From contig NZ_CP107783.1 of NCBI RefSeq assembly GCF_036345255.1, positions 9,913,001 through 9,977,000 of the forward strand: a stretch of DNA of 64,000 nucleotides. Direction: 5' to 3'. The position numbers and the translations under genes were made by a program. The DNA comes from Streptomyces sp. NBC_00569 (GTDB taxonomy: Bacteria; Actinomycetota; Actinomycetes; Streptomycetales; Streptomycetaceae). Positions within the stretch are counted from its first letter, which is position 1. The number at the start of each line of letters is the position of its first letter. Shown here piece after piece: positions 23,004 to 54,125 of this stretch. A model generated the notes under the pieces. It did not search any database and was not told where the DNA came from. It saw only the letters and a program-made list of their open reading frames with translations.

Positions 23004-25259
23004 TCATCCGGCATCCGGCTCGGCGGTCTGGGCGTCCAGTACGGCCCAGACGGTCTTGCCGTCATCGCGGAAACGAACTCCCCAGCTTTTGGCGAGTGTT
23101 GCGCAGATGTGCAGTCCGCGTCCGCCTTCGTCCGTCGCCTTGGCGTGGCGGGGGTAGGGGGCGGTGAGCGCGGCGTCGTCGATTTCGCACGTCAGCGTTG
23201 TTTCCCCTCTGATTAGGCGGAGGGTGATCGGGGGAGCGCCGTATCGGATTGCGTTGGTGACCAGTTCACTGACGACCAGTTCGGCGCTGAACGGGTCGAC
23301 GTCGAGGCCCCATTCCTGAAGGCGTGTCTGTGTCTGTTCCCGGGCCGGTCTGGCCGACTGGAGTTCGGGCGGCACATTCCACTCGGCGAGCTCGTCCGGG
23401 GGCAGGTGCCGGGTGCGCGCGACGAGCAGGACACGGTCAGGTGCCAGAAGGCGTTCGACGTCGTCTGCCATCTGCTGCGGTCCGCGATCCGGATGCGCGA
23501 GAGCAGCGGCCAGGCCACCTCGGGTGGGGCCTTGCGCGCGGGTGGCCGCGGGGGAGGCGAGGCAGACCGTGCTCCCCTCAGGCAGGACGAGGCTGGTGGA
23601 GGCGAACGGGGGGCCTTCTTCTCCCAGGAGCGGCCCTTCCTGCAGGGGGGCGGTGTCCACGGTGCCGTCCGGGCGGACGATCGTGAACATCGAGCGGCCG
23701 GCCCGTGCGGCATCGAGCCGCCCGCTGACGGGGTCGTGGATGGCGATGGTGCAGTGCACGGTGGGTTCGTCGGTGCTTCCCTGCGCGTATTTTCGCTCGC
23801 GGGCGAGGCGCAGGACGGTGGAATGCAGCCGGGCCAGGAGTTCGTGCGGGTCGAGGTCCAGGGTGGTCAGGGCCTGGGCCGCGGTCCGCAGGCGGCTCAT
23901 GGTGGCGACCGCGCTCAGGCCCGGGTTCTCGACCTTCCCCACGATCAGCGCGAGGCGGGAGCCGGGCAGAGGCAGAGCGTCGAACCACGATCCGGCGCCG
24001 CTGCCGCCCGCGTGGTGGCGCTGGGCGATCTCGGCGGCCCGTTGGGTCTGCCGTTCCTGCCCGCTGGGCCAGCTTTGCAGCGCGGTCATGACGACGTGCT
24101 CGCGTGTGAAGCGCAGCGCGTTCTCCAGACTGATCGCGGCGCGCGTGGTGATGCCCTTCGCCAGGTCCACGTCCTCGGGAGTGAAGGGTTCGCTGCCGCG
24201 CCGGCGCTCGAAGGCGACCGCCCCGAGGATCTGGCCCCGTGCCGACAGCGGCGCCACAAGCCGCGGCCCGTAGGGGGTGTCGTCCGCGTCGGCGCCGTCC
24301 GGTTCGGACACCGGCAGGATGGTGACAGTCGACGGCAGCTTCGGGCCGAACAGTTCGGGCAGCAGAGCCGAACCCGTCGGTGGCGGCGGGTAGCCGGCCC
24401 CGGTACTGCCCGCCGCAGCGCAGCGCAACAGCAACTCGTCGTCGTGAGCCGACAGTTCAGGCGTCCTGCCCTGCAGGACGGCATCGGTGAGTGCCACGAT
24501 TGCACTGTCGGCGAAGTCCGGCACCGTGACGTCCACCAGCTCGCCGGCCGTGCGTTCCACGTCGAGGGTGCGCCCGATCAGCTCGCGGGCCCTGTGCAGC
24601 AGGCGCAGGCGGGCCTGGGCGTGCTCGCGCGCGCTCACGTCCACCGTCGTCGCGACCAGTCCCAGGGTGCGGCCCGCCCTGCTGCGCACGCGATAGATCG
24701 ACACCGAGAAGATGTGCTCGCGTTCGGGGTCGGTGGGTGGCCGGCTCCGAAGGAGAACGTCGCGGGCCGGCTCGCCGGAGACGAGGACCTCACGGAGCAT
24801 GCTCTCTTCGATCCGCACGCCCATGGCCGCGTACGCCTCCGTGGCCGGGAGCCCGATGATGTCCCCCAGAGGGATGCCACGCATCCCGATGGCCGAGGGG
24901 TTGACCCGTACGACCCGCAGCTGGGGGTCGAGGAAGTGCAGACCGACATCCGCCTGGGTGAACACGGCGTCCAGGATCACCTCGGCCAGACCCGGCAGGT
25001 TCTCGTCCCCGCCCATCCCTCCTTCTCCGTCGTCGTCCCTTTCCTGCCACACACCCCAGGTCCGTTCGCGGGATTCCGGCGCGAGCGGCCCGATGCGCCA
25101 CGACCGCCCCTGCGTGGTCGTGGCGCCGACGACGTCGAACACGCTGCGTCCCAGGACGTGGGCCGCCGGACGGCCGAAGAGGTCTTCCGCCGCGACGCTC
25201 CACTCGACGACCCGGCCGTGATCGTCCACGGTGAGGAGCGGCTCATCGTGAGCGGGCAT
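23004..25259 (-). CDS. PAS-PAS-GAF-SpoIIE-like-HATPase regulatory protein with degenerate phosphatase site
   Basis: This ~751-residue cytoplasmic sensor has, in order, a PAS domain (~1-95), a second PAS (~100-225, HFLDPQLRVVRVNPSA), a GAF domain (~240-395), a SpoIIE/PP2C-like domain (~425-600) and an anti-sigma-type HATPase (~640-750, ELVVSELVTNAIRYGAPP, then DEGGRGLHI). Such proteins usually switch sigma factors by dephosphorylating anti-sigma antagonists. The two metal-binding aspartates of the PP2C domain are lost: the GGDWYD position reads GAGSWFD and the GDVxGHG position reads GKVENPG. The kinase-like HATPase part looks sound. ATG 25259 follows GAGGG; GTG 25271 is an alternative. Confidence 0.8.
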   Translation of the reverse strand: MPAHDEPLLTVDDHGRVVEWSVAAEDLFGRPAAHVLGRSVFDVVGATTTQGRSWRIGPLAPESRERTWGVWQERDDDGEGGMGGDENLPGLAEVILDAVFTQADVGLHFLDPQLRVVRVNPSAIGMRGIPLGDIIGLPATEAYAAMGVRIEESMLREVLVSGEPARDVLLRSRPPTDPEREHIFSVSIYRVRSRAGRTLGLVATTVDVSAREHAQARLRLLHRARELIGRTLDVERTAGELVDVTVPDFADSAIVALTDAVLQGRTPELSAHDDELLLRCAAAGSTGAGYPPPPTGSALLPELFGPKLPSTVTILPVSEPDGADADDTPYGPRLVAPLSARGQILGAVAFERRRGSEPFTPEDVDLAKGITTRAAISLENALRFTREHVVMTALQSWPSGQERQTQRAAEIAQRHHAGGSGAGSWFDALPLPGSRLALIVGKVENPGLSAVATMSRLRTAAQALTTLDLDPHELLARLHSTVLRLARERKYAQGSTDEPTVHCTIAIHDPVSGRLDAARAGRSMFTIVRPDGTVDTAPLQEGPLLGEEGPPFASTSLVLPEGSTVCLASPAATRAQGPTRGGLAAALAHPDRGPQQMADDVERLLAPDRVLLVARTRHLPPDELAEWNVPPELQSARPAREQTQTRLQEWGLDVDPFSAELVVSELVTNAIRYGAPPITLRLIRGETTLTCEIDDAALTAPYPRHAKATDEGGRGLHICATLAKSWGVRFRDDGKTVWAVLDAQTAEPDAG

Positions 25260-38836: not shown

Positions 38837-39087
38837 AGCGCGTACTCATCTCACTGCGGAACAACGACCTGCAGCGACGCTTCCCGCACTTGATCGCCCC
38901 CTCATCCGCGCCGCTCAGGTCGCCCTCAAGCCCACTGACCGAAGAGACACCGTCCAACTGAGACCTGTCCGGGCGATCACACTGCGGTGACACGTCAAGG
39001 TCCCGCTCCCCGGCAGGCCGAGGCCGGCAGCGTGCCAACTGATCGACGTAGGATCAGTCTTGCCTCGCGTTGGAAGGTGGTCTGTCC

Positions 39088-39846
39088 ATGCCCGTGCCGA
39101 GCCTGCTCGCGGTATTCGCTCACCCCGACGACGAGTCGTTGTCAGCCGGCGGAGTGCTCGCGCGTCACGCAGCTGCGGGCGCGCCCACCGCAGTCGTCAC
39201 CGCAACCTGGGCCGCGGACACCGAGCGGGCCGCGGAGTTGGCCGAGGCACTGCGGATCCTCGGCGCCGGCAAACCGCGGATGCTCGGCTACGCCGATGCG
39301 CGCGTTCCGCAATCGGCACCGGGCTGCCGGCGGCTCTGCGATGCACCGCTCGACGAGGCCGTGCAGCGGTTGGTGGCACACATCCGTGACTTCCGCCCGG
39401 ACGTCATCGTCACCCACGATGCCTATGGCGGCCTGCCCGGTCACCCGGATCACGTGCACACCCATCGCGTGACCATGCTCGCGGCTCAAGCCGCCGGGCT
39501 GGGACAGCTGTACCCGGACACCGGCGCCCCCTGGCAGCCACGTGCCCTCTACCTGGCCACGCACCCGCACTCAGCCGTTTCGGCGCTGAGAGACGTGATC
39601 GGTGCTCGCAAAACGGTGTACAGCGTTCCGGACGAACAGGTCACCGCGACGGTCGACGTCAGCCCTTGGATGGAGCAGAAGATCGCCGCAGTGCTGGCGC
39701 ACCGCTCCGAGGTGGAGCGGGGAGCCCTTCCGGGGGTGATCGCCGGTCTTCCGCCGGATGCCCGGAAGCGGCTGTTCGCCACCGAGTGGTACATCCGCCA
39801 CGATCTCGTCACTGCAGCATCGACCCAGCCGGAACTGACCACTTGA
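39088..39846 (+). CDS. PIG-L-family deacetylase
   Basis: A 252-residue LmbE/PIG-L enzyme. The zinc and catalytic motif AHPDDES lies at residues 11-17 and the third ligand in GHPDHVHTH near residue 115; VTHDAYGG is the conserved middle block. The family removes acetyl groups from N-acetylglucosamine-type substrates, including mycothiol precursors and glycosylated natural products. This member's substrate is not evident. ATG 39088 follows GGAAGGTGG; an upstream ATG six codons earlier overlaps that site. A terminator follows directly. Confidence 0.85.
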   Translation: MPVPSLLAVFAHPDDESLSAGGVLARHAAAGAPTAVVTATWAADTERAAELAEALRILGAGKPRMLGYADARVPQSAPGCRRLCDAPLDEAVQRLVAHIRDFRPDVIVTHDAYGGLPGHPDHVHTHRVTMLAAQAAGLGQLYPDTGAPWQPRALYLATHPHSAVSALRDVIGARKTVYSVPDEQVTATVDVSPWMEQKIAAVLAHRSEVERGALPGVIAGLPPDARKRLFATEWYIRHDLVTAASTQPELTT

Positions 39847-45299: not shown

Positions 45300-46774
45300 G
45301 GGTTCTCCCGGAAAGATGTGAAGTGATCTACGGATTCATCGGTGGGGGACGAGCGCGGCGACGTCGAAGGACGTCAGCAGAGGCCCGTCACGCTCTCACT
45401 CGTAAATCGGCGTCTGGAAGAACATGACAAAGACGATACCCGGTTCCGTCGGCCCCTCATACCAAGCTTTTCGCCGCCCCGGCGCCGGCCGGGCCTTCAG
45501 CGAGCGCCCGAGGTCAGCCGTTCCCTTCTGCTTCTCCATCCGACCACGGAGCCTTCCTACGGCGGCTTGCAGCCGACACCGAAACCCAGTTGAAGGCTGC
45601 GGCAACCACTGTCCTCGCTGGTGCGGTCACCCCGCGGGAGGAATGCGGCACAGGGGCGTCGGACAGTCCAGCCGCGCTCACGGACTCCGCCGCAACAGGC
45701 GCCGAACCGGACATCGAGTATTCCGGCGGCGGGATGCCCGTGCAGGCATGGGTCTCACTGCCCGCCAGCTGCTGGAAGGTCCGTGGCACCCACACCAAGG
45801 CGGACGAGGAGACCCGCGGCGCCCCGAACATCAAGGGCGGCAGGGGCAAGCTCCGCTACATGCTGGAGCAGACCTTCGCCCTGCTCCAGCACTTCAAACG
45901 CCTCGCCGTCTGCTGGGGGCGCCGCGCTGGAGTCCACGACGCCGGACCTGCTGTTCTGCGGCGTTGTCCGTTCGGAAGGGTTGAGGCCGAGCGTCGCCCG
46001 GCCTTCGGCAGGGACGCCGCTGTACAAGGCGCACAGACGCTGGCGCCACAGCGCTACTTCTCCGCAATCCCCCACAGGAGGTACCCAAACCCACAGGAGT
46101 GATCGAACGCAGCATCACGGCGCAGCACCCTCGGCCACACCAAGGGCCACTCGGCCTATTCGAAATTCGGTTCTAGATTTCGCCCCCGGACACCCGTGAC
46201 GGCGACAGGAATGGCCCAGTTAACCGATCGCCTGTCCACATCGCGCCCCGAGGAACACCCATGCACCGATTGCATCCGCCTGCGCTCATTCATCCTGCGT
46301 TCGAAAATGCAGCTCCGCGCTCGGACACCTCCACTCACCGTGCTGACGCTACGCCAGAGTCCTCGCCGACGGGCCCTGACCGGATACGAGGGCCCGGCAT
46401 GACGGAACCCGCAAGCCTTCCCGCTTCACTGGCCCGGCGGGTGGAACCGGCTCCAGAGCTGACTCACCACAGCGCTTCTGCTCGCCCGCGACGCTTCGAT
46501 CTCCTCGCCCACGACCGGGTCTTCATCCGCCCCAGGCGGATGGTTACGTCTCCGAACTGCTGGCCAAGACCGGCGGGGGGCTCCTCTTCGGATAGAAGCG
46601 CCTAACGACCGGCCAGACCCTTTCCCGAAGAGTCCGGGCTGGTCCACCGTGGAACACGACCGAAGAGAACGGCTCGTGAGATCGCACCCGAAGCCCTCCC
46701 ACAACCCCCCTTGTCCAACGGCTTCCTTGACCTGGAGGTCGCCCGCCGCTGTCAGTTGACGTCGCGGATCCCGT
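45300..46774. other. 1.5 kb without an intact gene
   Basis: It contains an IS5-type transposase remnant (45783-45955). Just before it is a piece resembling a decayed lipoprotein start (VLAGAVTPREECGTGASDSP, about 45608). Nothing is supported from 46156 to 46774. In particular, no FxLD-type precursor peptide was found upstream of the methyltransferase gene. Confidence 0.45.
45783..45955 (+). pseudogene. IS5-type transposase C-terminal remnant
   Basis: GGRGKLRYMLEQTFALLQHF followed by KRLAVCWGRRAGVHDA matches the DDE-glutamate region of IS5-group transposases (GxxxWVVERTFAWLxxFRRLxxRxERRxxxH). Only this segment is left. Confidence 0.65.
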
Positions 46775-48935
46775 ATGACCCCACCGGAAGAAGGGCCCGC
46801 CGTGGCGACTCGTCCCACCACCGAACGCGACGAAGCAAGCAACTTGCGCCATCAGCTTGCCGACCGGCTCCTGTCAGCCGGCCATATCCGCACCAGCCCG
46901 GTCGAGAGCGCCTTCCGCACCGTGCCGCGGCACGCCTTCGCCCCCGAAGTCCCCACCGAAACGGCGTACGCCAACGACACCATCCCCACCCGCCACGCGT
47001 CCGACGGCCGGACCATCAGCTCCGTCTCCGCCCCCTGGCTGCAGGCCGACATGCTCGAAGCAGCCCGCATCCGGCCCGGACACCACGTCCTGGAGATCGG
47101 CTCCGGCGGCTATAACGCCGCCCTGATCGCCGAGCTAGTTGGGCCCATTGGAAATGTCGCCACCCTCGACATCGATCCCTTCGTCACCGAACGCGCGACC
47201 CGCTTCCTGGCCGAGACCGGGTACGACCGCGCCCGCGTCATCACCGCCGATGCCGAAGACCTGCCTGAAGGCATCGTCCCGGACGAAGGCTTCGACGCCA
47301 TCATGGCCACCGTCGACACCTGGGACGTGCCCTGGATCCAAGCCCTCGCAGAGGGCGGACGCCTCGTCGCACCGCTCCGGCTGCACCAGTACGTATGGGC
47401 CATCGGCTTCACCAAACGCGACGGTGAACTCCACAGCGACGGGCCGCTCACCGTGTGCGGATTCGTCCCCATGCAAGGCGCCGGGGCATGGGATGCGAAC
47501 CGGCGCACCGTCCCGGGCAACGGCATCCATCTCGCGTGGGAGGACGGAACACCCCTGCCCGTCGATCAGCTCGCCCCAGCCTTCTCGCGCGTTGACACGT
47601 ACGCACGTGACGGTCGGCGGCCAGGAGCCCTTCGACGCCCTCACCCTGTACCTGGCCGGGGCGCTGCCTGGCTTCTGCCGCCTCTCGGTCGATGCCGACA
47701 GCGACAACGGCGTCCTGAACCCACCACCCCCGCACTGGCCGGGTGCCGCCATCGTGCGCGGCGCCTCCCTCGCACGGCTGGCCACCGAACGCATTGCGGA
47801 CGGCGACGACGGCAACGGCGTGTACGAACTGGTCGTCCACGGCTACGGACCAACGCGACACCTGGCCGCCAAGGAGATGGCGGAACAGGTTCAGCACTGG
47901 CAGCGCAACCACCGAGCGGCCTCATACCCGTGCATCACCGTCCAGCCCGTCGCCAGCCACGGCTCAGCCTCCGACGGCCATACCCCGCATGTGTTCCGCA
48001 AGAAGCACACCCGGATCTCGGTCGACTGGCCGGTCATTCCCGGCACTGCGGCCCTGCTCACTGACGACGAAGGCCGCTACCTGCTGCACCTGCGCTCGGC
48101 GAACAAGCCGATTTGGCGGCCCGGGCAGTGGGCTCTGCTCGGCGGCAACACCGAGAAGGGCGAGACATGCGACGAGGCGATCGTGCGGGAACTCGCCGAA
48201 GATACCGGGCTCACCATTCCCGGCCTCACCACCTTCGCCACCCTGGACACGCTCGAAGCCAACGGATCTCTCAAGGACCGCGTCCGCGTCTACCAGGGCA
48301 GGCTCAACCTGCCGGCGCACGAGATTCAGCTGCGCGACGGGATCCAGCTGCGCTGGACGCGCATCGAGGAGACAGCGGAGATGACCATGGACCCCGGCAC
48401 AGCCGCGGTGCTCCAAGCGCATCACGGCGGTTCGCACTCCGCCCGCGGAAGCGACGGGATCCTCCTCACCGTGCAGGTCCACGAGCCGAACGACCACCGA
48501 AGCCGCAGCATCGTCGGTGCCCACCTCGTCCTCATCCGCGACGGGGCCGTGCTGCTCGGCAAACGCCACGCCAACAGTGCCTTCGCCCCTTCGACCTGGC
48601 ACCTGCCAGCCGGCCATCGAGAGGACAGTGAAGCCGCCGCCTCCTGCATGATCCGTGAGGCGGAGGAGGAGACCGGACTCGTCATCGCCGAGGGCGACCT
48701 GTCACTCGTGCATGTCGTCGACCTGCTCGATCCCGGCAGCCCGATCCCGCGCGTCCAGTTCTTCTTCGCCGCATCGCGGTGGGAGGGCGAGCCCGTCGTC
48801 CGCGAACCCGACCGGTGCACCGAATGGCGGTGGTGGCCGCTGACCGCGCTGCCCGAGCCGATTGTGGCGTACACCCGCGCCGCCCTGGAGAGCATGTCTC
48901 GCGGCGCGCTCTACACCGCGATGGGGTGGAGCTGA
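46775..48935 (+). pseudogene. FxLD-type methyltransferase fused to two Nudix domains, one frameshift
   Basis: The 5' frame encodes a protein-L-isoaspartate-methyltransferase-like domain (VESAFRTVPRHAFAPEVPTE, SAPWLQADMLEAA, SAM motif VLEIGSGGYNAALIAEL). The coding frame changes at about 47598-47610; the next frame completes the domain (VTVGGQEPFDALTLYLAGAL, YELVVHGYGP), as in the methyltransferases of FxLD lanthipeptide systems. Two Nudix domains follow: box 1 GGNTEKGETCDEAIVRELAE has its EE pair altered to ED, while box 2 GHREDSEAAASCMIREAEEE is complete. The next two genes also join MT to Nudix, so a native fusion is likely. Start 46775, or GTG 46802 with a better ribosome site. A sequencing error at 47600 would make it intact. 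Confidence 0.75.
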
Positions 48936-49038
48936 CGCCTTGCCATCCACCGCTCGGCCGGGCCGCTCCCGCTGCGCCCGGCCGCCGCTCACCGCTGCTT
49001 CCTTGAGACCACCGCTTCTGGGAAGGACGTGCCTCTGC

Positions 49039-50568
<1,530 letters not shown>

Positions 50569-50614
50569 CTCCCGGCTCAAGCAGCCAACCCATTTACCAG
50601 TGAGGGGAGTTCCC

Positions 50615-51820
50615 GTGTCAGTTGAGGACCTCAATGCCGAAGCCTGGACCATCTACGGCCAACGCCAGCTCAACCGCGCGTTCATGCCACCAGTACCGGA
50701 GAAGCTGAACTGGACCCCGTGGGAGGGCATCGGCCCCGGGGCCGAACTCCTCGGCGAGATCGCTGGCAAAAGAGTGCTGGATATCGGCTCGGGGGCCGGC
50801 CATCACGCCGTGCACCTGGCGCGGGTCCACAGTGCGCGCATGACCGCGATCGAACAGTCGCCCACTCAGCACGAGCGTGCCGTCGGCACTCACGCCGGCG
50901 TCCACGGCGTCGAATTCGTCCAGGGTGACGTCGTCGACTACCTCCGCACCGCCGAGCCCTTCGACGCGGCATACGCCATCGGCACCCTGGCGTTCGCCGA
51001 CCCTCACCGCGCCCTGCCCGCGCTGCGCCAGGGCCTATGCCCAGGCGCACCACTGATCCTCTCCCTCCTGCACACCGACCTGCACGACCGTGGCCCGTCC
51101 ACGACGGTCGCGCCCCGGGAGCAGATGATCCCGCAGCGCGACCACCCGCCGCTGGCCACGCAGATGTGGGTACTGGCGCCCCAGCTGTGGGAAGACCTGC
51201 TCAGCGAATACGGCTTCCGAGTCGAGGCCATCGACCTGCTGCACCATCCCGACGACAGCGCGTCGGTCGTGCAGCAACTCATCCACGCGCGCCGCCTCGC
51301 CGACCGGCCCGCACGCATCTCCAGCCGCCCTCGCAGCACCCGGCCACCCGCACCGCACGCGGCCGTTGGCGTCGGCGCCGTCCTCTTCAGCGACCAGGGC
51401 GTACTACTGGGTCGCCACCGCCGCGGCACGCTCGAACTCCCCGGAGGCACCGTAGAGCCCGGGGAATCCTTCCAAGAGACGGCGGTCCGCGAACTCCGCG
51501 AGGAGACCGGACTGACCGCACGCCCGGACGACGTCACGCTCCTGGGCACCCTCGCCGACCACGTCGGTGACGTCCTGCGGGTCACCATCGCCGCTCTGGT
51601 CCATGCCTGGCAGGGCCAGCCGGACACCCAGCCTGACGAAAGCGTCGGCGACTGGGCCTGGTATCCCCTCGACCAGCTACCCGACGGACTGTTCGTATGC
51701 AGCGCCCAGATCCTCACCGCTTGGCGCCCCCACCTGCCCATCGACCACACTCCGGCACACTTCACACCCTTCGCGAGCGGCACGGCGCCCTCGTCCACAG
51801 CATCGAACCGCGGCGCATGA
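50615..51820 (+). CDS. Methyltransferase-Nudix fusion protein
   Basis: A 401-residue two-domain protein. Residues ~5-225 form a class I SAM methyltransferase (WTIYGQRQLNRAFMPPVPEK, motif I VLDIGSGAGHHAVHLAR, FVQGDVVDYL). Residues ~250-380 form a Nudix hydrolase (VGVGAVLFSDQGVLLGRHRR) with a full box GGTVEPGESFQETAVRELRE ETGL. GTG 50615 follows GAGGGGAG and lies 46 bp after the previous gene. The stop overlaps the next ATG (ATGA). The methyl acceptor and the nucleotide substrate are unknown. Confidence 0.85.
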   Translation: MSVEDLNAEAWTIYGQRQLNRAFMPPVPEKLNWTPWEGIGPGAELLGEIAGKRVLDIGSGAGHHAVHLARVHSARMTAIEQSPTQHERAVGTHAGVHGVEFVQGDVVDYLRTAEPFDAAYAIGTLAFADPHRALPALRQGLCPGAPLILSLLHTDLHDRGPSTTVAPREQMIPQRDHPPLATQMWVLAPQLWEDLLSEYGFRVEAIDLLHHPDDSASVVQQLIHARRLADRPARISSRPRSTRPPAPHAAVGVGAVLFSDQGVLLGRHRRGTLELPGGTVEPGESFQETAVRELREETGLTARPDDVTLLGTLADHVGDVLRVTIAALVHAWQGQPDTQPDESVGDWAWYPLDQLPDGLFVCSAQILTAWRPHLPIDHTPAHFTPFASGTAPSSTASNRGA

Positions 51821-52802
51821 CCTCGGCCACAGACTCGAGCCTGTGGCGGCACCGCGAATTCCGCCTGTACTGGACGGGCCAGGCCAGCGATGTCCTCGGC
51901 TCCTCACTCAGTTCGGTGGCCATTCCGCTGGTAGCAGTGGTCACGCTGCATGCCACGACGTGGGAGGCCGCCATCCTCGCGGCCGTCCAGAAGACGCCGC
52001 CCCTGTTGTTCTCCCTGCCCGCCGGCGCGTGGTGCGACCGCGTCAAAAGCGCCCCCTGATGGTGGCCACCAGCCTGGTTTGTGCGGCGGGGACGGGGTCC
52101 ATTCCGCTGGCAGCGGCTTACGACAGGCTGACGCTGATACAGCTGTGGCTGGTGGCCTTCGTGGTCGGCTCCTGCCACGTCCTGGGCATGGCGGCGAGCC
52201 TGTCCTACATCCCCCATCTCCTGCCGCCGCACCGACTCCTGGAAGCCAACGCCAAACTGGCCAGCGCCAACACCCTGTCCGACATCGGCGGCCCCGCCCT
52301 CGCCGGCGCGTTGATCGGCGTGATCGGTGCCGCCCGCGCGGTCGCCGCTGACGCCGTTTCCTACCTCGTCACCGCCTGGTGCACGCTGCGCATCCACAGC
52401 TCCGAGGCCGGCCCAAGACCACGCACCACAACGCCGTCACTGCGCGGTGAGATCCGGGCCGGCCTCGCCTACACCTGGCGCCATCCCGTCATCGGCCCCC
52501 TCGTGACCACGAACGCGATCACCTCAACGGTCCTGGCCGGCACCAGCGCGATCTGGGTCGTCTACCTGGTCCGCGAACTGCACTGGTCGTCACAGGTGTT
52601 CGCCCTCGTCATGAGCATCGGGGCGAGCGGCGGATTCCTCGCCTCCCTCACCACAGTGCGCCTCACCGCGCGCTATGGAGCGGGATCCGTCATGATCAGC
52701 GCACTGACCCTGGCACCGGCCAGCCAACTACCGCTCCTGCTGGCCCACCCCGGCCCTACCGGACAGCTGGTCTTCGGTTGCGGTCTGTTCGCGCAGCTCT
52801 AA
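51817..52802 (+). pseudogene. MFS transporter, frameshifted and 3'-truncated beside an IS
   Basis: The start codon overlaps the upstream stop as ATGA, so it belongs to the MT-Nudix operon. The first frame (SLWRHREFRLYWTGQASDVL ... LPAGAWCDRVK) stops at 52059. Restoring one A in the AAAA run at 52045-52048 gives KRPLMVATSLVCAAG and continues through about eight more helices to TAA at 52800-52802, the target duplication of the adjacent IS. The ~329-residue product would lack the last helices of a typical ~400-residue macrolide-efflux-type MFS protein. The sequence beyond the IS does not continue it. Confidence 0.75.
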
Positions 52803-53670
52803 GACGCTGTCCTACATGGTGAGTGTGAGGAGCCGTTTGTAACAGCAGAGGGCTGCGGCAAGGCCGAGAAAGGCCAGGTAGTTGGCGGGTTGGCGCTCGT
52901 AACGGGGGCTGAGTCTGCGGTAGCCCGTCAGCCACGACATTGTCCGCTCGATCACCCACCTGCGGCGCCCTAATCGTTCGCTGGACTCGACACCCTTGCG
53001 GGCGATGCGGACCCCGATGTGCTTGCCCTAGAGCCATCGCCGCAGGTGAGGTATGTCGTAGGCCTTGTCGGCGTGAAGGCGTTGAGGCTTGAAGTAGCGT
53101 CCGCGGTAGCGGTCATGTCTCGTTTGGTGACCCTCGACCATGGGTTTCAGCGCGAGGCTGTCGTGGACGTTGGCGGCGGAGAGGCCGACGATGAGGGGCA
53201 GTCCGTTCGCGTCCGACAGGACGTGCATCTTGGAACCCTGCTTGCCCCGGTCCACGGGGCTCGGACCTGTGTGTTCGCCCCCTTTTTTGCCCGCACGTGC
53301 GCGGAGTCCAGCACGACACGGGAGACATCGACGAGGCCGGCATCGTCCAGCCGGTGCACAACCGCCTCATGCAGACGCCCCCACACACCAGCTCTCGACC
53401 AGATCATGAACCGCCGGTGCACCGTCGACTTCGACACCCCAAAACAGGGCGGCAATGCCCGCCAGGCGCAACCGCTTACCAGTACGTAGATGATCGCGGC
53501 GAACAGCGTCTCATCAGGCGTGTTCTGCTTTCCGCCACCCTGTGGCCGCACCCGATCCGCCGGAATCAACGGCCTGGCGATCTCCCACAGCCCGTCCGGA
53601 ACAATCCAACTCCACGTCCCCTGCACCATGTTGAGGAGCACTACCCAGCCTCACCATGTAGGACACCGTC
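52803..53670 (-). mobile_element. IS5-family insertion sequence with a broken transposase
   Basis: An 868-bp element flanked by TAA duplications (52800-52802 and 53671-53673). The terminal repeats are GACGCTGTCCTACATGGTGA and, at the right, GACGGTGTCCTACATGGTGA (reverse complement), with one mismatch. It carries a two-frame transposase. It differs from the element at 6889 in sequence, ends and target duplication. Confidence 0.85.
52812..53641 (-). pseudogene. IS5-family transposase, ORFA/ORFB with an amber stop
   Basis: ORFA (from 53641) ends beyond a canonical -1 slippery heptamer A_AAA_AAG in HVRAKKG. The shifted frame reads GGEHTGPSPVDRGKQGSKMH then VLSDANGLPLIV. It is interrupted by TAG at 53028-53030 after HLRRWL and continues as GKHIGVRIARKGVESSERLG and RRRWVIERTMSWLTGYRRLS, ending at 52812. 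The slippage is normal for the family. The amber codon removes the catalytic glutamate, so the transposase is dead unless suppressed. Confidence 0.8.
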
Positions 53671-53673
53671 TAA

Positions 53674-54125
53674 GTGGCCGGGGAATTGGTGTTAGCACCA
53701 TGACCACTTCGGAACGCCGGGCGGGGAAGTGGCGCCGGTTCTTGCCCTCTCGTCTACCCGTCCTCGCTCGCGGACGCATCACCGGTGTCAGCGAGCGCTG
53801 ACGCAGTTACGAGGAGCCGCAAGCCGCCGCGGCGACTGCTCAGTAGAGCCCCACGGGGCAGGACTGCCTCTACTGGTGTGAAACGTCGTCCGCTCGGGTG
53901 TCTCATACAAGTCTGAGCACCGCAGGTCTGAGGCGTGGGGTACCCACACTTATCTGAGACAGGACAGCTGGCGGACCGCCACCGCCTCCGCTCCGTCCGC
54001 TGTGGGGCCTGTGTGGTCCCACAACTGCTGCTTCGACGATCTCGCGGTGCTCGCCGTGGCGGAGCGAGCGACGCACGCGATCCTGTCCCGCCGAAGCCAC
54101 ACCCGTCTCTGAGAAAGGTGACCCA
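53674..54125. other. Intergenic, no gene seen
   Basis: About 450 bp between the IS and dinB-like gene. No frame or repeat is convincing. It should hold the promoter of the DinB gene. Confidence 0.4.

Follow-up and report, generated by a model that had tools for sequence, protein, structure and literature searches.

A decaying set of methyltransferase–Nudix fusion genes in Streptomyces sp. NBC_00569 as part of a locus family with an exchanged core

What is the role of three consecutive genes that each join a methyltransferase to Nudix domains, and do they belong to a single pathway? This question is raised by a locus in a stretch of 64,000 nucleotides (the window) of Streptomyces sp. NBC_00569 (NZ_CP107783.1, positions 9,913,001-9,977,000), located near one end of a 10.3-Mb contig. 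On the plus strand at 46775-52802, three genes, designated A, B, and C, are followed by a gene for a transporter of the major facilitator superfamily (MFS). Based on Pfam and NCBIfam profiles, A encodes PCMT/FxLD methyltransferase-Nudix-Nudix, B methyltransferase-ASCH-Nudix, and C methyltransferase-Nudix; the gaps are 103 nucleotides between A and B (48935 to 49039) and 46 nucleotides between B and C (50568 to 50615), and C overlaps the MFS gene by ATGA at 51817-51820. The initial annotation had described this layout correctly with respect to domains, order, strand, gaps, and ATGA overlap, but A is not a single frame, and the MFS gene is split and ended by an insertion sequence. Since the methyltransferase domains differ in best Pfam family (PCMT in A, Methyltransf_11/25 in B, and Methyltransf_25 in C), plain tandem duplication is excluded, as the annotation had also concluded.

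Comparison with other genomes shows that A, B, C, and the MFS gene are what decay has left of the 3' tail in a family of Streptomyces loci whose core is exchanged. A total of 17 strong B-family places were identified in 199 Streptomyces genomes (NBC_00569 included), five with the full methyltransferase-ASCH-Nudix architecture and 12 with ASCH-Nudix or part of it. A relative of C was located within 3 kb at 12 of the 17 places (11 of 16 without the window), and one of the five places without a nearby C sits on an 8-kb contig. A search for related loci returned nine. An ATP-binding cassette (ABC) gene, A, B, and C follow one another, all free of inner stops, in S. olivochromogenes (L147) and on an S. 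chartreusis plasmid (L101), and the order in S. albospinus (L148) is ABC, A, ASCH/Nudix, C, and MFS. Assembled from intact members, the composite tail begins with a leader and an APH kinase or Nudix gene, continues with the ABC gene, A (its Nudix pair not always present), more Nudix genes, and an M15 peptidase gene, and closes with B or ASCH-Nudix, C, and sometimes the MFS gene. With C near most B places and the order conserved in several species, A, B, and C belong together in relatives, as had been anticipated, but the MFS gene accompanies them only sometimes. Its relative is uninterrupted behind C in L148, present in L118, and interrupted by a stop in L116; L147 and L101 yielded no relative, and the MFS protein was rejected as the constant exporter of the system. 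The earlier idea of export by this protein lacks support, the MFS gene being no constant partner; the ABC gene, which precedes A in most relatives seen and is lost here, is the commoner partner.

The locus in the window is a decaying copy: A is frame-split, the MFS gene carries a frame break and is truncated by the insertion sequence, and the ABC gene has been lost. Of the four genes, two are thus broken. The first piece of A (46775-47588, plus strand) carries the FxLD-type PIMT/PCMT methyltransferase domain, as indicated by profile and protein matches, and the second, in another frame (47592-48935, plus strand), carries the end of this domain and the two Nudix domains. TIGR04364 matches A in both frames (positions 1-250 in one and 255-394 in the other), with scores of 283 and 81 bits against a cut-off of 320 bits. 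The two pieces correspond to residues 1-271 and 276-722 of the intact 722-residue database protein P0121 with 99% identity, indicating that the frame break is recent. The first gene is thus frame-intact in relatives, as was expected of a genuine system: in addition to P0121, the copies in L147 and L101 lack inner stops. Near 52055 the MFS gene changes frame, which leaves a first piece coupled to C by ATGA (51817-52059, plus strand) and a second piece lacking its end (52053-52798, plus strand). It is terminated by the insertion sequence (52799-53674, minus strand) with 34-nucleotide inverted ends, of which the minus-strand open reading frames (ORFs) presumably encode the transposase. The frame breaks in A and the MFS gene may stem from sequencing error. 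B (49039-50568, plus strand, 509 residues; class I methyltransferase, ASCH, and Nudix) and C (50615-51820, plus strand, 401 residues; class I methyltransferase and Nudix) are intact.

Upstream of A, leader or promoter-like conserved DNA is kept at 46092-46406 (plus strand, 75% identical); in relatives it is located between the last core gene and the APH, Nudix, or ABC genes. The position of the last core gene is occupied in the window by an open frame at 45590-46100, which may be a transposase end. Homology between the window and L147 is limited to 46065-46421 and 46760-51770, at 76-77%. Since it breaks at 46421-46760, where L147 has approximately 2.5 kb including the ABC gene and the window has 339 bp without ABC similarity, this segment is missing here; a search for the ABC gene gave no match at this place. 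The leader, a stretch of approximately 315 bp that follows the last core gene, was identified at 20 places with at least 222 aligned bases in 17 of 392 genomes, the window included. The ABC gene is present within the fetched region at 18 of the 19 other places; the window, with a leader and no ABC gene following, fails this pattern. The ABC gene itself was rejected as a marker of the module because it is too common, with a relative in 318 of the 392 genomes at 1e-90. Among 20 fetched copies (69-90% identical), 19 were without leader or tail gene at the tblastn thresholds, and the twentieth, in G103, has C directly behind it. In one of the 19 (L263, G034:C24, 9807-12845), the ABC protein (69%) and a Nudix domain share a single open frame, so that exporter and Nudix are physically joined.

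Two ORFs of 47 and 26 residues upstream of the ABC gene in several loci, ending in PDTRYLA, were considered as a precursor family of the type of ribosomally synthesized and post-translationally modified peptides, and rejected. Their in-frame ratios of nonsynonymous to synonymous differences (pN/pS) were 0.96 and 0.99 (14 loci each), the differences showed no enrichment in the third position of codons, and the conserved end falls on an apparent ribosome-binding site and the start of the next gene. Because the coding test failed, the region is treated as leader DNA; an Rfam scan of it gave one chance-level match only.

The tail was found behind two unrelated cores. The survey was made by tblastn with identity and coverage thresholds, which drop some true members and under-call ASCH-Nudix, on fetched regions of approximately 20 kb, so that more distant cores would be missed; the ORF-based annotation misses genes of which the crude ORF overlaps a longer one. 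It lists 36 distinct loci that carry one or more tail genes (the window included; G191 is S. albospinus), of which seven contain an FxLD lanthipeptide core (G092, G116, G197, G203, G379, Streptomyces sp. JJ38, and S. sclerotialus), five a 7-deazaguanine-type (Que) core (G107, G169, G237, G279, and G354), and none both. The names TPR, half-exporter, p234, p427, and p503 used below are our own labels, and the TPR-like protein has no Pfam match. The JJ38 locus (L150) consists of LanB_N, LanC, a LanB_C-PIMT fusion, a TPR-like protein, ABC, and then A, with the FxLD precursor readable at 997-1179; the same operon without an ABC gene precedes A in S. sclerotialus (L149). A divergent set of LanB type (35%) that precedes one G284 locus fell below the survey thresholds. 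The order in the Que core is QueD-QueE-FolE-p503-methyltransferase-Nudix-p427, and FolE reaches the NCBIfam cut-off. FolE, QueD, and QueE are described as the first steps towards 7-carboxy-7-deazaguanine (PMC11888242). The QueD-QueE-FolE cluster of L226, L229, L230, L232, and L236, with methyltransferase and Nudix genes and a protein weakly like nucleoside phosphorylase, has no published account that we could find in the open-access literature.

At the locus under study, neither core was detected: the FxLD precursor model TIGR04363 gave no match in the whole genome, LanB_N and LanC of L150 gave no tblastn hit in the window at 1e-4, and the window ORFs between 36 and 56 kb gave no match to FolE, QueD, or QueE when compared with the L229 and L236 proteins. 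The initial annotation was right in finding no FxLD precursor nearby, but several relatives carry an FxLD operon directly upstream. In the reverse direction, the precursor model identified 82 places among the matches listed in 199 genomes, and in nine of the 40 regions fetched a gene was labelled as related to the Nudix-fused set (L162, L166, L167, L171, L172, L173, L179, L186, and L194), with a match of only 33% in L179; two more, L168 and L184, contain only an unlabelled ORF with a Nudix box. Most FxLD clusters seen therefore lack the tail.

Shared flanks with 77-90% DNA identity surround the unrelated cores. By blastn, Que-type L229 and FxLD-type L233 share 3.3 kb at 81%, followed by dissimilar middles of 8.8 and 6.7 kb, respectively, and then by the leader (0.4 kb at 83%) and the tail (6.6 kb at 88%); alignment of L236 with L243 gave a similar picture. 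When L230 was compared with L172 and L229 with L166, both outer flanks were alike and the leader and ABC region unlike. The 5' flank (p234, DUF6624, and DUF6082) precedes the core in all five Que loci, and was not found in the loci of the survey outside the two core groups. The trees mix the core labels, and well-supported branches require the Que label to change at least three times in that of the tail Nudix gene, at least twice in that of ABC, and at least twice in that of DUF6624, though the trees are small (12, 21, and nine rows, respectively), three Que rows are near copies, and the labels cluster somewhat. The simplest reading of these alignments and trees is that the core has been exchanged between conserved flanks more than once.

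For the function of the tail, we slightly prefer self-protection to core-specific tailoring, because the tail persists alone, follows two unlike cores, and joins resistance-like genes on plasmids; an export and nucleotide- or small-molecule-modifying module serving self-protection is given a probability of roughly 45%. The ABC protein, taken as a half-exporter, would export the product or its fragments, the Nudix domains would hydrolyse activated nucleotide or pyrophosphate-linked forms, and the fused methyltransferases together with the neighbouring kinase and peptidase would mask the compound. The tail would be a transferable module that still works without a core. In this genome, with core and ABC gene gone from the locus and A and the MFS gene broken, only B and C could act. 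In loci without a recognised core, pooled pN/pS was 0.28 for the Nudix pair of A (four loci), 0.49 for the methyltransferase of A (four), 0.44 for B (nine), 0.35 for C (eight), and 0.35 for ABC (seven), in contrast to about 1 for the leader ORFs; the values of 0.38-0.69 for the same five in core-bearing loci mix paralogues. This purifying selection suggests that the tail does something without a core. Among known systems, Pur7 is named among the resistance-mediating enzymes of puromycin (PMC11641026), and a second precedent is tubercidin, where the Nudix protein TubG is accompanied by the kinase TubH and the MFS protein TubI (PMC6112128).

Several observations weigh against this picture of an exchanged core and a self-protecting tail. 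Selecting loci by their similarity to A, B, C, the leader, ABC, or the FxLD precursor biases the core proportions, and 24 of the 36 tail loci show neither core within the approximately 20 kb fetched. The Que-type loci G169, G237, and G279 are near copies in the ABC tree; QueD-like and QueE-like proteins are below the NCBIfam cut-offs (78 of 89 and 83 of 260), and no QueC was recognised in these loci. On the FxLD side, the leader and an ABC gene of the L147 kind occur together in only three of the seven loci (G203, G379, and JJ38); in G092, G116, and G197 the ABC gene is of another kind and the leader gave no match, and the 22 kb fetched from S. sclerotialus contain no ABC gene. The 5' flank was found in four of the seven, p234 alone in a fifth, and the JJ38 stretch ends before it. 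The ABC gene occurs also without leader and tail, and the tail genes of coreless loci are sometimes broken, as A in L108, or shortened, as C in L110. Self-protection itself was deduced from the types of gene present, and the product of the FxLD core is a peptide, on which Nudix hydrolysis would serve no obvious purpose.

The strongest alternative is that the tail proteins (methyltransferase, Nudix, ASCH, kinase, and peptidase) tailor whatever the accompanying core makes; the FxLD methyltransferase of A would then act on a lanthipeptide Asp like a related PIMT, and the Nudix domains would remove phosphates from deazapurine nucleotides. The FxLD loci contain the LanB_C-PIMT fusion, and a PIMT of such a cluster methylates a core Asp (PMC7268733); TubG is likewise presented as a tailoring Nudix in 7-deazapurine biosynthesis (PMC6112128). 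The predicted structure of C is good (methyltransferase and Nudix with a loose linker), and its methyltransferase fold appears to resemble those of the natural-product methyltransferases MitM, CcbJ, TleD, and MtfA by Foldseek, although the hits are mostly generic methyltransferases that indicate no substrate. Tailoring of this kind is possible but somewhat less probable than self-protection: purifying selection acts on the tail genes even where no core is recognised in the locus, two chemically unrelated cores precede them, and the methyltransferase of A accompanies a Que core in G169, a genome without an FxLD precursor match (G237 and G279 were not searched).

The tail could instead be a small pathway of its own leading to an ABC-exported, nucleotide-derived compound, with the core a mere neighbour brought in at a recombination hot spot. 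The retention of ABC, A, B, and C alone without inner stops in S. olivochromogenes and on the S. chartreusis plasmid, the purifying selection, and the unlike middles between conserved flanks would fit this, but no scaffold-building enzyme was recognised among the tail proteins scanned, all of which are modifying or hydrolysing; we regard it as unlikely. The initial annotation had proposed a single pathway acting on a nucleotide-linked compound; the 7-deazaguanine-type core of some relatives fits this proposal, but the FxLD lanthipeptide operon is left unexplained, and a single dedicated pathway is doubtful because the tail genes sit behind two unrelated cores or neither. That one chassis carries interchangeable warheads, the Nudix-fused enzymes acting on both since peptide and nucleoside share a nucleotide-linked form, is rather improbable. 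The 44 Nudix matches in the host genome, and the insertion sequence and broken genes of the region, recall ordinary paralogues of a variable chromosome arm clustered by repeated insertion without joint function. The order conserved in several species already refutes this explanation for the most part, and the shared leader and the purifying selection speak against it too. If self-protection by an exchangeable-core tail is the correct reading, the conserved tail and leader would be a handle for finding unknown lanthipeptide and deazapurine nucleoside clusters, and the question arises why a similar Nudix-methyltransferase-exporter set would serve both peptide and nucleoside.

Pur8, of the puromycin cluster, is an MFS exporter. 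The puromycin, cystocin, and A201A clusters share enzyme types with the tail (the Nudix hydrolase Pur7, a methyltransferase, an acetyltransferase, and Pur8), but the part of the source available mentions no fusion proteins, no core is shared, and the likeness to Pur7 is judged by enzyme type (PMC11641026). The tubercidin cluster of Streptomyces tubercidicus likewise combines 7-deazapurine genes with a Nudix hydrolase (TubG), a kinase (TubH), and an MFS transporter (TubI), but TubG is a small stand-alone Nudix (PMC6112128), unlike the several per locus fused here to methyltransferase, ASCH, APH, or GNAT; no UbiD or phosphoribosyl pyrophosphate transferase relative was recognised among the proteins scanned. 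The actinobacterial class I lanthipeptide clusters of FxLD type (families I 1-4, TIGR04363/TIGR04364) resemble the locus in the probable FxLD-type PIMT methyltransferase of A and in the tail genes behind the LanB_N-LanC-LanB_C/PIMT operon in seven loci, but the window genome has no FxLD precursor match, the window has no LanB_N or LanC match, and the word Nudix is absent from the main text of the paper describing them (PMC7268733). Neither a single operon combining Nudix fusions to methyltransferase, acetyltransferase, kinase, and ASCH nor such a core swap was found described in the open-access literature, to which the search was confined (subscription literature lay outside it).

Alike in building principle is an operon of Streptomyces giant linear plasmids (NZ_CP109170, NZ_CP134205, NZ_CP074103, and NC_023286) with MT-Nudix-PIMT (MT, methyltransferase), Nudix-APH, and GNAT-Nudix fusions, annotated as ABC, NUDIX, HIT, phosphotransferase, MFS, PIMT, methyltransferase, GNAT, M15, and fxlM, not all in every record. 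It differs in the fusion partners, and the ABC proteins of this operon and of L147 share 34-36% identity; a relative of this operon lies behind the FxLD core in L194. A larger relative of the tail was observed on Streptomyces linear plasmids (L099, L100, L103, L104, and L105), which carry varying subsets of ABC, triple Nudix, HIT, APH, MFS, PIMT, methyltransferase, Nudix-APH, GNAT-Nudix, M15, MT-Nudix-PIMT, PIG-L, and Nudix.

A, B, and C contain two, one, and one Nudix boxes, respectively, by a loose pattern. The box with metal-binding glutamates (PF00293) is present, with ED for EE in one box of A and one additional residue in that of B. Among the 120 matches listed for each protein, at least one loose box was found in all 39 relatives of A with 700-745 residues, in 56 of 57 relatives of B with at least 455 residues, and in 117 of 120 relatives of C. 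By sequence, the PDB chains nearest to the second Nudix domain of A and to the Nudix domain of C are those of MutT and plant Nudix 1. Other fusions among the matches of the A and B searches are FxLD methyltransferase, methyltransferase, and Nudix (P0202), Nudix and MFS (P0219), and APH and ASCH-Nudix (P0312). The ASCH domain of B (PF04266) scored 24.7 bits against a gathering cut-off of 21.2, and the structure model of B is poor (mean predicted local distance difference test score, pLDDT, of 62). Within this domain at 49824-49866, seven in-frame copies of CCACGA encode an Asp-His run, where the consensus of relatives is the short HDRDSGREL.

Elsewhere in this genome, a 978-residue open frame with three Nudix matches occurs at both ends (L127, G000:C1:10290000-10309900; mirrored near 23,600-25,000). 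Its neighbours in L127 are an ABC gene that shares 86% identity with the plasmid type, an MFS gene, and pieces of PIMT; this is another, apparently decayed, tail. In the window, a PIG-L deacetylase gene (39070-39843), approximately 62% identical to that of the plasmid-type tail, is located 7 kb upstream of A, and a gene for a HAD-family hydrolase at 43890-44621 matches the CTE7 and YjjG/YfnB models below their cut-offs.

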